From Candidatus Woesearchaeota archaeon (GTDB lineage Archaea; Nanobdellota; Nanobdellia; SCGC-AAA011-G17; GW2011-AR18): a stretch of 44,350 nucleotides of DNA. Below, piece after piece: positions 1-17,775 of the stretch. The notes below the pieces were generated by a model. It made no database searches, was not told where the DNA came from, and worked only from the letters and a program-made list of their open reading frames with translations. How positions within the stretch are numbered: position 1 is the first letter of the stretch; each line of letters starts with the position of its first letter. The DNA lies in the NCBI GenBank assembly GCA_018302105.1, contig JAGWAD010000008.1, positions 1 to 44,350 on the forward strand, written 5' to 3'. The position numbers were made by a program, and so were the translations under genes.

Positions 1-1788
1 TGGAGTTGAAGTTTGGGAAGAATCTGGTGAAGTACCTGTGTTTGTTCCAGTTGTGCTTCCACTTGAACCAGTAGAAGAACTAGTTCCAGAAGTTTCCTGA
101 TTTACAATTATTGATAAAGTTGCAGTATTTATATTTGATGAAGCATCTGTTGCTGTACAAGTAATTGTTTTTGTTTCTGCTGTAGTTGGAGTGTATGAAG
201 CAGAACATGAATTGCTATTAGAAGAGCATATTGCTGTACCATCACTTGAAGTTACTGAAACTGTAGAAGGATTGTCATCTGAATATGTGCATGAAATTGT
301 AGTTGAAGATGATCTTGTAAAGGAAGTTCCTGCAGAAGATGTTAAAGAAATTCCTGTTGGTATAAATGTATCTGCGAATATAGTATAGTTGCTAAAACCA
401 TAAACATTAATTGAAACAGGATTACTTGCTAATTTTGTGCAAATTGTTGAAGGACATGAAGTTCCATCCTTATAAATAGTATATCTATTATTTGCTGTAA
501 AACTTTGCTGGAAAAATGTAAAATTTATTGTTTTGTTTAAATTTTGATATTTTGTGCTATTTAAAAAAACACTATTATTCAATATTAGAATATTATCTGC
601 TGCACCCAATGTTAAATCTTCGTATATTGTTAAATTTGTCTGGTTCCAAATTAAAATTGCAAAATCATTTTCATATGTCATTGTATTATATGTTATAATT
701 CCAGTTGAGTTTATATCTATAGTATTATTCCCGAATGTGTTGTTTAGTAAATGAACTCTTGCAGTTTCTTCTAGTTGTATGCCTACACTTGAATTTCTTA
801 TAATATTGTCTCTTAATGTATAATTAAGACCTGGAGTTACACTACCTAGAATATCTCTTACAAATCCAAAATAAAAACCATATGTGACATTAAAAATATC
901 ATTATTTGCTATTGTTATTCTCTTTTGGTTATTTGGAAAAGAATTATCGCCTATACCTTCTAAATCAATACCTGCAAATATCATATTTCTTAATGTATTA
1001 TTTATTAATGATGTATTGCCTACATTAATAAGCATAATTCCTATATATGTATTGTCAATTATATTATCTTTTATTGTTACATTGTTCAGATCTACAGTAA
1101 ATCCCCCAAAATTTAATTCTATTCCTATACTATATTTGTTAGGTATTGAAGTAGTATTAAATATATTATTTTGTATTATTGTAACATTTTCAAAAAAATT
1201 TCCATTAGAAGGTGCAAATTTTATCCCATTTGATCCTGATGGGTTACTACAGGCGCTGCAAGTAAAATTATAAAATGTGTTATCTTTAATAAAACCATTT
1301 ATTACATTTTTTAAAAATAATCCTTCAGCATAATTATTGCCTGTTGAGTTTAAATGTCTTATTGTATTATTTATAAATGTAAAATTATATGCGCTGCCGT
1401 GTGTATTGACTCCAATTCCTACCCCTTCAATTATACAATTTTTTATAGTTATATTAATTCTTGGACTTGGATTTGATAATGCTATTGCAGTATATTGTGC
1501 AATTTGATTATTGCTAGTTAATCCAGCTCCTGAGTAATTGCCAACTATAGCATTTCCTGCACAGTCCAATTCAATATTATCTGAAGTTATATTCAGAATT
1601 GTATTGTTGTGGCAACCAGTTAAAGTATCGGAAGCTGTTAATATCCTACTTGCATTTAAATTATCGCCACAAGTACAAGCAATATTTGCCCCACAAAGAC
1701 TGTTATATCCTGCGATTGAATAAAAAGAATTTAATATTAAAGAAACTACAAATAAAATAAAAATTGCTATTATTAGATTTGACCTCAT
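1..1788 (-). CDS. Secreted parallel beta-helix surface protein, C-terminus cut by window edge
   Basis: An open frame runs from ATG at 1788 to the window edge (596 codons, no stop), so this is the N-terminal part of a larger protein. Residues 1-27 form a signal peptide or membrane segment (MRSNLIIAIFILFVVSLIL). A long array follows with repeated Asn-rich rungs such as NNTIRHL, DNIIDNT and NNTLRNM, typical of right-handed beta-helix (NosD-like) repeats. After it comes an Ig-like segment with paired Cys (TISCTYSDDNPSTVSV) and a Ser/Thr/Gly-rich linker. Many N-x-S/T sites suggest surface glycosylation. A TATA-like element on the minus strand lies near 1813-1825. Function is likely adhesion or polysaccharide contact, but no catalytic motif is visible. 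Confidence 0.8.
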   Translation of the reverse strand, partial: MRSNLIIAIFILFVVSLILNSFYSIAGYNSLCGANIACTCGDNLNASRILTASDTLTGCHNNTILNITSDNIELDCAGNAIVGNYSGAGLTSNNQIAQYTAIALSNPSPRINITIKNCIIEGVGIGVNTHGSAYNFTFINNTIRHLNSTGNNYAEGLFLKNVINGFIKDNTFYNFTCSACSNPSGSNGIKFAPSNGNFFENVTIIQNNIFNTTSIPNKYSIGIELNFGGFTVDLNNVTIKDNIIDNTYIGIMLINVGNTSLINNTLRNMIFAGIDLEGIGDNSFPNNQKRITIANNDIFNVTYGFYFGFVRDILGSVTPGLNYTLRDNIIRNSSVGIQLEETARVHLLNNTFGNNTIDINSTGIITYNTMTYENDFAILIWNQTNLTIYEDLTLGAADNILILNNSVFLNSTKYQNLNKTINFTFFQQSFTANNRYTIYKDGTSCPSTICTKLASNPVSINVYGFSNYTIFADTFIPTGISLTSSAGTSFTRSSSTTISCTYSDDNPSTVSVTSSDGTAICSSNSNSCSASYTPTTAETKTITCTATDASSNINTATLSIIVNQETSGTSSSTGSSGSTTGTNTGTSPDSSQTSTP

Positions 1789-15056: not shown

Positions 15057-16105
15057 TTAATTATTCCTTGCTGGCTGACTATAATGCGGCCTGTTATAAT
15101 GAGGATAAGTTTCTGCTTCCATAAAGACTTTTGTTGTTTTTACAGCCAACCCTTTATTTTGATTCATAATCTCTTCTGTTGATAATTCTGATATTCCTAA
15201 ACCAACTAATTCATTTTTAATTGTCATTATAGCTATATTGTCCCCTTTCTTTATTTCTGATTCTAATTTTGTTATTCCTGGAATGTTTAAGTTTGCACCA
15301 TGACAAACAGTATCAACTGCATTATCTGTAATCCAAATTTTAGGTAGGTGACTAATTCCAAATTCTGTTGGTTTAATTATCTTTTTTAATAATGAATCAT
15401 TGTTTTCTGTTTTGTATAATTCGTAGGCATCTTTTAAATCGTGCAATGAATACCACTCACTTTCTTTAAAAGGTCCTGCTTTTGTCCTAACTAATTCTGC
15501 CATGTGCGCATTTGTTCCAAGAGCACGACCCCAGTTAACACAGAGAGTTCTTATATATGTTCCTGCTTGACAACCTACAATGAATAAAACATCTTTTTCT
15601 TTTATTTCTAATATTTCTAAATAATAAATTTCTCTTTCTCTTAATTGTCTTTTAACTGCAGATTTTACTGGTGGTAATTGTGTTATTTTTCCTATAAATT
15701 CTTTTGAAGCTTTATGTATTTTTGATATTGGTATTTCTGCATGCAGGTGCATTATACAAACATATTCTTTTCCTGCTTTTAATAAAGCATCCATTATTCT
15801 TGTAGATTTATCTAATGATATTGGTAAAACACCATAAACATTGGGATAGCTCTGAATTAAATATTAATTTAATTCTCTAGAGTCCCACCGTGTCCAACTT
15901 TTTCTACATTAAATATTTGCTTTATATAATCTGCTACCTGATGCGAGGATGGTCCCTGAGGCTTATTCAGGCAAATAACTCCGTTATTGAGCAATTCTTC
16001 TATAGCTCTCTCTTCTGGTTTTTTTCCATATTTAACATCTGTAACAGACTCTTTTTTTACCAATACTTTTCTTTCTATTTGTTCAAATAGTAATTTATTT
16101 TCCAT
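15057..16105 (-). CDS. cbf5: tRNA/rRNA pseudouridine synthase Cbf5, gene interrupted by a BHB intron
   Basis: Two reading frames join into one 339-aa protein when a 29-nt intron (15848-15876) is removed: exon 1 is 16105-15877, exon 2 is 15847-15057. Exon 1 gives LNKPQGPSSHQVADYI and VEKVGHGGTL; exon 2 gives PNVYGVLPISLDKST and MDALLKAGKEYVCIMHLHAE. The splice creates Asp77 in GGTLDPNVYGV, the catalytic Asp of the TruB/Cbf5 family. The C-terminal PUA domain is present (GANLNIPGITKL, GISELSTEEI). Without splicing translation stops at residue 78. Cbf5 is the catalytic subunit of H/ACA guide RNPs. A TATA element near 16128-16137 implies a leaderless start. Confidence 0.93.
15848..15876 (-). other. 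29-nt archaeal BHB intron in cbf5 pre-mRNA
   Basis: On the minus strand the junction folds as a canonical hBHBh' motif. The outer helix is TGGGA/TCCCA (15883-15887 with 15842-15846) and the central 4-bp helix is CTCT/AGAG. The 3-nt bulges are AGA and CTA, cut AG^A and CT^A. The inner helix is GAATTAAAT/ATTTAATTC (9 bp) with loop TAAT. Cutting between the second and third bulge bases gives exactly the frame that restores GGTLDPNVYG. This is the motif recognised by the archaeal tRNA splicing endonuclease. Introns in cbf5 are documented in Crenarchaeota. Confidence 0.93.
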
Positions 16106-16139: not shown

Positions 16140-16319
16140 CTAAAATTTGCAAGCTCCGCAGTTTTCTTTTTCTCTGTAATCAGGCATTGTCATTTCAACT
16201 ATTTCCCAAAACTTTTCTGAATGGTTAAATTCCTTTAAATGAGCAAGTTCGTGTATGCAGACATATTCTAATACTTCTTCTGGCTTAATACAAATAATTG
16301 CTGAAAAGATTGAAAAGTG
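16140..16319 (-). pseudogene. Remnant of SprT/YgjP-like (DUF45) zinc metalloprotease
   Basis: A 59-codon open stretch without a start codon encodes a recognisable C-terminus: IKPEEVLEYVCIHELAHLKE, then FNHSEKFWEIVEMTMPDY. HELAH is the HExxH zinc motif, and the later His in EFNH completes it. The family is normally about 170-230 aa, so two-thirds are missing. It begins directly after the eL31 stop codon, in the same frame, and ends at 16140 over the cbf5 promoter. It is a truncated relic, not a gene. Confidence 0.75.
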
Positions 16320-16322
16320 AAA

Positions 16323-16877
16323 TTAAGGTTTTGCTTCTTTAGCTTGTTTTTTACCTGTGCTTCCTACAACTCTTCCTCTTTTGGCTTTAGCTTCATTTAT
16401 TTTATCTTCCTCTTTTACTGCTTTTTGAGGAGTTTCTATATGTTCATGATGATGTTCTTTTTTTTGTTCGTGAACTTCTTCTTTTTCTAAAGCTTTAAGA
16501 TCCTCTTTCTTTTTTTCATCTTTAATTTCTGTAACTTTCTTATCTTCTTTAACAGTAGCTGCTTTTATATCAATAGGCTTTGATTCTTTTTTCCCTTCTA
16601 TTTTAACTTCTTCAAATAATGGAAACTCTGGAAGTTCAACATAAGCTTTGTTATCGTTTATAGCAGATTTAACTTTTACTTTTGCCGGGGGATTTTTTCT
16701 TCCTCTTTCCCAAATTTTTAAATTTAAATTTTTTCCAATTTTAACATTATTAATCGAAACTTTCATATGCCTTGAAATATATTCTTTAAGAGCAGTAATT
16801 GCCTTTTTACTTCTTTTATAATTCTGTGCTTTATTAAATTCTCTTCTTAAATTGATTATGAATAATTTTTCTTCCAT
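16323..16877 (-). CDS. rpl31e: Ribosomal protein eL31 with long charged C-terminal extension
   Basis: 184 aa, about twice the usual 80-100 aa. Residues 1-90 are eL31 (FIINLRREFNKAQNYKRSKK, then AITALKEYISRHMKV and NLKIWERGRKNPPAKVKVKS). Residues about 92-184 are a low-complexity Lys/Glu tail (KEEVHEQKKEHHHEHIETPQ) ending AKRGRVVGSTGKKQAKEAKP. It starts 1 base after the eL39 stop. The tail probably extends from the ribosome near the exit tunnel; its job is unknown. Confidence 0.92.
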   Translation of the reverse strand: MEEKLFIINLRREFNKAQNYKRSKKAITALKEYISRHMKVSINNVKIGKNLNLKIWERGRKNPPAKVKVKSAINDNKAYVELPEFPLFEEVKIEGKKESKPIDIKAATVKEDKKVTEIKDEKKKEDLKALEKEEVHEQKKEHHHEHIETPQKAVKEEDKINEAKAKRGRVVGSTGKKQAKEAKP

Positions 16878-16878
16878 T

Positions 16879-17052
16879 TTATAGCTTTAATTTTGTTCTT
16901 CTCCAGCTTCTCTTTGATTTTGTATAACGCATTGGATGTACTTTTTTCATTCCCTTGTTTATTTTTGGAACTACCCAAATAGGAGCCCATCTTGTTCGCT
17001 TTCCTGCTTTTGCGAGACGCAATTTTTTTGCTTTCGGTTTGTTACGTGCCAT
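16879..17052 (-). CDS. rpl39e: Ribosomal protein eL39
   Basis: 57 aa: [20 protein letters not shown], then [20 protein letters not shown] and RRTKLKL. This matches eL39, the small basic protein lining the peptide exit tunnel, normally about 50 aa. A few extra residues lie in the middle. It lies between PDCD5 and eL31 in the usual archaeal order. Confidence 0.95.
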
Positions 17053-17081
17053 GTTAATTGTTTTTCGACATTTGTATATTG

Positions 17082-17360
17082 TTATTTCCTCACTATTTTT
17101 GTTTCTCTTTTTTCTGAATCAAGCTGTTTTAAAATTTGCTTGAATTGTTCGTCACTTATTATATCAATTTTATTTTCCTGTATTATTTTTGAAAGCAGCA
17201 CAATAATCTGCAAGGCTTTCCCTTGATCTACACTTTTAATGTTACCAAGCCTTGTTATTGCTTCATTATCTAAATGCTGCTTGACGAAAGTTTCCAATGC
17301 ATTTATCTGCTCTTGTAGTTTTATACGCTCCTGTGAATCATTCTCATTTGTCTGATTCAT
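17082..17360 (-). CDS. PDCD5/TFAR19-family DNA-binding protein
   Basis: 92 aa. The helical core matches the archaeal PDCD5-like family: [40 protein letters not shown] and a basic tail KRETKIVRK. It overlaps the end of eS19 by 17 nt and precedes eL39, a conserved archaeal gene order. The cellular role in archaea is unclear; family members bind DNA or chaperonins. Confidence 0.9.
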
Positions 17361-17775
17361 TTTTTATTAATACTGAATTTTTATCTATTATTGATTTTCC
17401 TTTTGAAGTTATTATCCTTCCTTTATGAACATCATCTTTTTTGAAAGCAACTAATTCTGCTTTTTCTAATTGTTGTAATATTGATCTAATTATTTTTCCT
17501 GAAGCCATTGCAAATCTTGGAGGACTATGCCCTCTTCTTTTTTTACTTCCATATTTAACTCTTAATTTTTGAACGCCAATTGGTCCTCTTTTGAAAACTG
17601 TAATTAATACTGCTGCAGCTCTTACATAATACCAATCTTCTCTTGCTGGCGGTCTTTCTTTTGCTGTGCCAGTTTTTACAAATTTAGTCCATTCAGGAGC
17701 TTTAATCAGGGATTGTAAACTAGTACTAAGTTTTTCTATTGATTTTTGCAAATCTGCATCAAATATATTTGCCAT
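17344..17775 (-). CDS. rps19e: Ribosomal protein eS19
   Basis: 143 aa, normal family length. Recognised by APEWTKFVKTGTAKERPPAR, EDWYYVRAAAVLITVFKRGP, IGVQKLRVKYGSKKRRGHSP and the C-terminal winged-helix part (IIRSILQQLEKAELV). It is the first gene of the eS19-PDCD5-eL39-eL31 operon. A long structured leader lies upstream, with a weak SD (AAGGAA). Confidence 0.95.
   Translation of the reverse strand: MANIFDADLQKSIEKLSTSLQSLIKAPEWTKFVKTGTAKERPPAREDWYYVRAAAVLITVFKRGPIGVQKLRVKYGSKKRRGHSPPRFAMASGKIIRSILQQLEKAELVAFKKDDVHKGRIITSKGKSIIDKNSVLIKNESDK

Follow-up and report, generated by a model that had tools for sequence, protein, structure and literature searches.

The cbf5 gene of a DPANN archaeon, Candidatus Woesearchaeota archaeon, is interrupted by 29 nucleotides (nt) that, judged from sequence comparison, are very probably a true pre-mRNA intron of the archaeal bulge–helix–bulge (BHB) class and would be spliced out. 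The window, i.e., the whole stretch of DNA analysed, is JAGWAD010000008.1 (GCA_018302105.1; 44,350 nt) and belongs to a genome, labelled G000, of 1.15 Mb in 42 contigs that is 98% complete. In the window, cbf5 lies on the minus strand at 16105–15057, and the insertion at 15848–15876 falls between letters 1 and 2 of the codon for Asp77 (G^AT), the catalytic residue. Unspliced, the gene consists of two out-of-frame open reading frames (ORFs), one of 78 amino acids (aa) that ends GGTLEN-stop and thus terminates ahead of the catalytic Asp, and one of 245 aa that starts inside the gene. Excision of 15848–15876 yields a 339-aa protein with GHGGTLDPNVYGV and Asp77, which matches Cbf5 models over its whole length (NF003280, 429 bits, E 6e-129; TIGR00425, 416 bits, E 9e-125), carries the DKCLD, TruB_N, TruB_C_2 and PUA domains, and also matches solved archaeal Cbf5 structures. 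TruB_C_2 has a single match in the genome, in the window gene, showing that the split gene is its sole cbf5; TIGR00425 has two, as expected for two pieces. The parts of the gene are as follows.

15877–16105, minus strand: cbf5 exon 1, codons 1–76 and the first letter (G) of Asp77 (ORF 15869–16105; the spliced product fits Cbf5 models full length)
15848–15876, minus strand: probable BHB intron, 29 nt, AGAATTAAATTAATATTTAATTCAGAGCT (frame restoration; fold z −4.9; same-site introns in relatives)
15057–15847, minus strand: cbf5 exon 2, from the AT that completes the Asp77 codon through the stop codon (ORF 15057–15794 and its upstream in-frame part)

The predicted fold of the 53 nt at 15840–15892 has an energy of −15.4 kcal/mol (z = −4.9), which none of 200 shuffled sequences equalled. 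Together with a scan for BHB geometry, it gives the following elements, all read on the minus strand.

15883–15887, minus strand: outer helix, 5′ arm TGGGA, in exon 1 (scan and fold)
15879–15882, minus strand: central 4-bp helix, 5′ arm CTCT, in exon 1, Thr75/Leu76 codons (scan and fold; covariation with the intron)
15876–15878, minus strand: 5′ bulge AG^A, 3 nt, cut after the second nucleotide (scan and fold; cut rule per PMC2738675)
15867–15875, minus strand: inner 9-bp helix, 5′ arm GAATTAAAT, in the intron (fold)
15863–15866: loop TAAT, 4 nt (fold)
15854–15862, minus strand: inner 9-bp helix, 3′ arm ATTTAATTC, in the intron (fold)
15850–15853, minus strand: central 4-bp helix, 3′ arm AGAG, in the intron (scan and fold)
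15847–15849, minus strand: 3′ bulge CT^A, 3 nt, cut after the second nucleotide (scan and fold)
15842–15846, minus strand: outer helix, 3′ arm TCCCA, in exon 2 (scan and fold)

A cut between nucleotides 2 and 3 of each bulge gives GGT GGG ACT CTA G^AT CCC, i.e., GGTLDPNVYGV with Asp77. The initial annotation had proposed a 29-nt split of cbf5 at this place, a fold of these same parts and the making of codon 77, the catalytic Asp, by the splice; its coordinates are right, the predicted fold returns each part, and the cut rule leads to the full Cbf5. However, the hairpin by itself is weak proof. Scanning the AT-rich window for BHB geometry with G–U pairs allowed returned 23 sites against a mean of 34 in shuffled windows, although an inner helix of 9 bp is rare (one observed against 0.33 expected). 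The BHB shape alone was therefore rejected as significant evidence, and the case is made by the exact frame restoration and by the relatives. Rfam and tRNA scans of the window returned no match.

Four further broken cbf5 genes with inserts at the same place were found among 40 relatives, and the examination of related genomes that the initial annotation had suggested was extended to other DPANN, Asgard and TACK archaea. In the window's order (Woesearchaeota), the intron is present in 13 of the 76 genomes with a readable site (G000, G003, G006 and G008 of the window's family; G035, G043, G044 and G046; G022 and G038; G066 and G067; and G078) and absent in 63. An intron-specific pattern run on 371 genomes of the phylum detected nine true cases, one of them from another order of the class (G368). 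A narrower pattern run on 85,000 species detected 27 true cases and three chance bacterial matches; the true cases comprise Woesearchaeota and Aenigmatarchaeota, Jordarchaeia and Borrarchaeum (both Asgard), Bathyarchaeota, Caldarchaeum, Calditenuaceae, Methanomethylicota, Culexarchaeum, Brockarchaeota and Geoarchaeota, Thermofilum, Desulfurococcales, Thermodiscus and Sulfolobaceae, with two titled only Thermoproteota or uncultured archaeon. Separate surveys placed the intron in 12 of 148 Asgard genomes, in 2 of 115 Aenigmatarchaeota and, after evident chance matches were dropped and with cases lacking a fetched locus judged from the matched string alone, in about 100 of 300 Thermoproteota. These counts are lower bounds, since the pattern requires a GGG codon. 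Matches L041, L051, L060, L067, L075, L169 and L175, as well as G694, G736, G765 and G800, were discarded as chance matches for want of a cbf5 frame or BHB pairing. The presence of the intron is patchy and varies even inside genera.

The inserts behave as introns. Across 82 intron-bearing genes they measure 13–41 nt and fall into all three length classes modulo 3, with none preferred. The search pattern set no pairing requirement on the central helix, and all four of its bases are paired in 73 of 78 cases (shuffled mean 32.6, maximum 42). Counting independent, well-supported changes on the tree, the third base of the Thr codon and its intron partner co-change, with ratios of 8:1 for C–G (p 0.04) and 7:0 for T–A (p 0.016). 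In the window's order, GGG encodes the Gly in 12 of 13 intron-bearing genes vs. 3 of 63 intronless ones (p 2e-10), and CCY encodes the Pro in 13 of 13 vs. 24 of 63 (p 2e-5; both by Fisher tests uncorrected for relatedness), suggesting that both codons are retained in intron-bearing genes because the outer helix is exonic and requires them. In the shortest introns (13–17 nt) an inner helix has little space, and these would count as relaxed substrates.

These observations also bear on two explanations that do without splicing. The 29 nt might be a sequencing or assembly error, or a frameshifting insertion in a dead gene, as can be argued from the draft state of the genome (42 contigs) and from a frame broken by an early stop. 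However, inserts at the same site with paired BHB arms recur in dozens of unrelated assemblies, the sole cbf5 copy has both exons otherwise intact, and exon and intron show compensatory changes, which makes an error or a pseudogene extremely improbable. The assembly artefact, which the initial annotation had named among the findings that would undo its proposal, is refuted by the many other genomes whose introns lie at this site but differ in sequence. Translational bypassing, known from phage T4 gene 60, would have the ribosome hop over the 29 nt of an unspliced RNA, in line with the insert being a hairpin. However, the insert varies in length and in sequence, yet the two bulges and the 4-bp helix, which are features recognized by EndA, are kept, and splicing of the crenarchaeal introns has been shown by cDNAs (PMC2738675), leaving bypassing with a negligible chance.

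The genome encodes the enzymes that splicing would need. Its tRNA-splicing endonuclease EndA (G000:C23:22524-22784; 211 aa) has the N- and C-terminal Pfam domains, and the closest solved structure is the Nanoarchaeum equitans endonuclease 3iey_A (E 1e-34); the ligase RtcB is also encoded (G000:C8), interrupted by a long in-frame insertion. EndA is present in 21 of 23 named intron-bearing genomes. The literature proposes that cbf5 introns are made possible by a hetero-oligomeric (alpha-beta)2 splicing endonuclease; PF01974 has one match in G000, in a search that a degenerate second EndA-type subunit could escape. Based on sequence and covariation, the cbf5 transcript would fold into a canonical BHB in which the outer helix consists of exon bases only and the central helix is formed between exon 1 and the intron. 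EndA would cut each bulge between nucleotides 2 and 3, RtcB would ligate the exons and thereby rebuild the G^AT codon of Asp77, and active Cbf5, the H/ACA pseudouridine synthase and an essential enzyme of RNA modification, could then be produced. We infer this processing of cbf5 mRNA by EndA and RtcB because both enzymes are encoded and because of the crenarchaeal experiments (PMC2738675).

The cbf5 pre-mRNA introns of Crenarchaeota (Watanabe 2002; Yokobori 2009, PMC2738675) are the closest known system. They measure 16–44 nt, similar to the 29 nt of the window intron; their splicing was shown by cDNAs and their cleavage has been demonstrated; and they directly follow the first letter of the codon for the catalytic Asp (PMC2738675). 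Gene, codon, phase and BHB cut rule are thus shared, and the site in the Desulfurococcales and Sulfolobaceae loci L052, L055, L059 and L073 is identical to that of the window, in agreement with the link to crenarchaeal introns drawn initially. However, the window host belongs to DPANN, as the initial annotation had proposed, rather than to Crenarchaeota, the intron sequence is unlike the crenarchaeal ones, and the intron is predicted to fold canonically, with both bulges of 3 nt, whereas most newly described crenarchaeal folds were called unconventional (PMC2738675). RNA evidence exists for Crenarchaeota only. The BHB motif is also shared with archaeal tRNA and rRNA introns, as presumably are the enzymes EndA and RtcB; unlike those introns, the window intron sits in a protein-coding mRNA, and codons therefore limit its helices. 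A BHB intron in Haloferax HVO_1309 (PMC7714728) is likewise an mRNA substrate of EndA, but it differs in lying in a 5′ untranslated region of another gene in a euryarchaeote. The 2020 paper that described it gave the crenarchaeal cbf5 intron as the sole reported mRNA example apart from its own (PMC7714728). No published report of a cbf5 intron outside Crenarchaeota was found in the literature searched, subscription journals being outside its scope. The cbf5 intron in DPANN, Asgard and many TACK groups lies far outside Crenarchaeota, from which the type was known.

Common descent with the crenarchaeal intron would fit the identical site and a gene that was not transferred whole, but the distribution is patchy, with ancestry and repeated gain as live alternatives. 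In the Cbf5 tree (FastTree), all 78 Nanoarchaeota-type rows make up one side of a branch (support 78), the window Cbf5 falls among the proteins of its family (73% identity to that of G008), and well-supported sets of 6, 8 and 73 rows are all Nanoarchaeota-type. The window Cbf5 thus nests within DPANN, which speaks against import of the gene as a whole. It is therefore unlikely that a DPANN lineage acquired an intron-bearing cbf5 by horizontal transfer from a TACK archaeon, even though the site is commonest in Thermoproteota and DPANN archaea exchange genes with the archaea they live alongside; transfer of the short intron region only is conceivable. Repeated independent gain at one favoured site, a rival for the history only, is a possibility of some substance: the conserved Gly-Thr-Leu-Asp-Pro codons can supply the outer helix GGGA/TCCC, which is entirely exonic, intron sequences differ between lineages, the distribution is patchy, and the fewest-change count in the window's order favours several gains. 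However, the needed GGG is so rare in the order's intronless genes that a ready-made target would be uncommon, and phase and position are identical in every case. In addition, G003, G006 and G008 have introns of similar sequence and G002 and G009, congeners of G008, have none, which indicates loss; G044 has a cbf5 intron and its congener G018 does not. The most likely history is that of an old intron which persisted in scattered lineages and was frequently lost, a leaning that stems from the scarcity of suitable codons in intronless genes.

Several points weigh against the reading of an old and spliced intron. In the window's order, the Cbf5 tree implies at least 10 changes of intron state, and well-supported branches force 6. 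The Nanoarchaeota-type clade needs 12 events by gains alone vs. 21 by losses alone from an intron-bearing ancestor, so that parsimony does not favour pure ancestral retention. The 85,000-species scan, with a pattern that detects about one third of such introns, named no euryarchaeote among its archaea. The EndA search gave no match in the intron-bearing G006, G035, G421 and G423, which may reflect gaps in draft genomes. The expectation of the initial annotation that the intron would bear on ancestral vs. independent origin holds insofar as the question is now sharply framed, but one DPANN case does not settle it.

Putative BHB introns were also observed in rtcB. Twelve rtcB loci were read, and five, all in relatives, are broken by 28–32 nt, as listed here.

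L273 (G011), 277–304, plus strand: putative rtcB BHB intron
L274 (G018), minus strand: putative rtcB BHB intron
L275 (G003), minus strand: putative rtcB BHB intron
L277 (G005), minus strand: putative rtcB BHB intron
L279 (G010), 270–299, plus strand: putative rtcB BHB intron

The insert lies within the Tyr codon (T^AY) of the motif PDxHxGYG in G005, G010, G011 and G018, and two codons earlier in G003; in each of the five, excision makes the motif whole again across the junction. By manual inspection, the four Tyr-codon inserts agree with the BHB cut rule, and G003 agrees more loosely. After excision, the frame is open over 470–489 aa in G011 and G003, partial in G005 (contig end), and open in G010 with a long in-frame insertion still inside. 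In G018, another insert still interrupts the frame: it is in frame, measures about 30 nt, includes a stop and lies within the GFDI/CG catalytic motif, about 80 nt further downstream, and its fold is not clearly BHB. No earlier report of rtcB introns was found in the literature searched.

Long in-frame insertions, probably inteins, split the RtcB profile in L276 (G000), L278 (G009), L279 (G010) and L280 (G012), giving open frames of about 870–1010 aa; they follow the DINC motif in G000, G010 and G012, and GYGF in G009. In Cbf5, long in-frame insertions near profile position 170 occur in L285 (G586, Thermoproteota), which additionally has a 22-nt cbf5 intron, and in L286 (G458, Asgard), with open frames of about 800–900 aa; these too are probably inteins. 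In two genomes of the window's class, G191:C26 (L288) and G122:C24 (L289), the Cbf5 match crosses one in-frame stop (TAA and TGA, respectively) with the Asp site intact. Upstream of cbf5 in the window, 16323–17775 on the minus strand holds a ribosomal cluster of S19e, a PDCD5-type DNA-binding protein, L39e and L31e, the last with a long tail rich in lysine and glutamate. The interval from the L31e gene to cbf5 contains a short ORF (16140–16322, minus strand) that ends CIHELAHLKEFNHSEKFWEIVEMTMPDYREKENCGACKF; it has a metallopeptidase-like HELAHLKEFNHSEKFW motif, lacks an N-terminal part and resembles the remnant of a gene.

Protein-gene introns are among the rarest archaeal features, and gene finders would report broken cbf5 genes in the lineages that carry this one. 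The identical site in DPANN, Asgard and TACK makes the question of whether the intron is ancestral or was gained repeatedly answerable from a few hundred public genomes, among them pairs of congeneric species of which one has the cbf5 intron and the other lacks it. The rtcB introns, if true, would mean that the splicing ligase RtcB is required to make its own mRNA. It is slightly short of an even call that mRNA splicing by EndA and RtcB is of old date and widely used in archaeal gene expression, in which case the cbf5 intron would predate the split of DPANN, Asgard and TACK and would have been lost piecemeal, with RtcB needed for its own mRNA in several relatives in the Woesearchaeota. The finding thus raises a testable question, i.e., the age of mRNA splicing in archaea.
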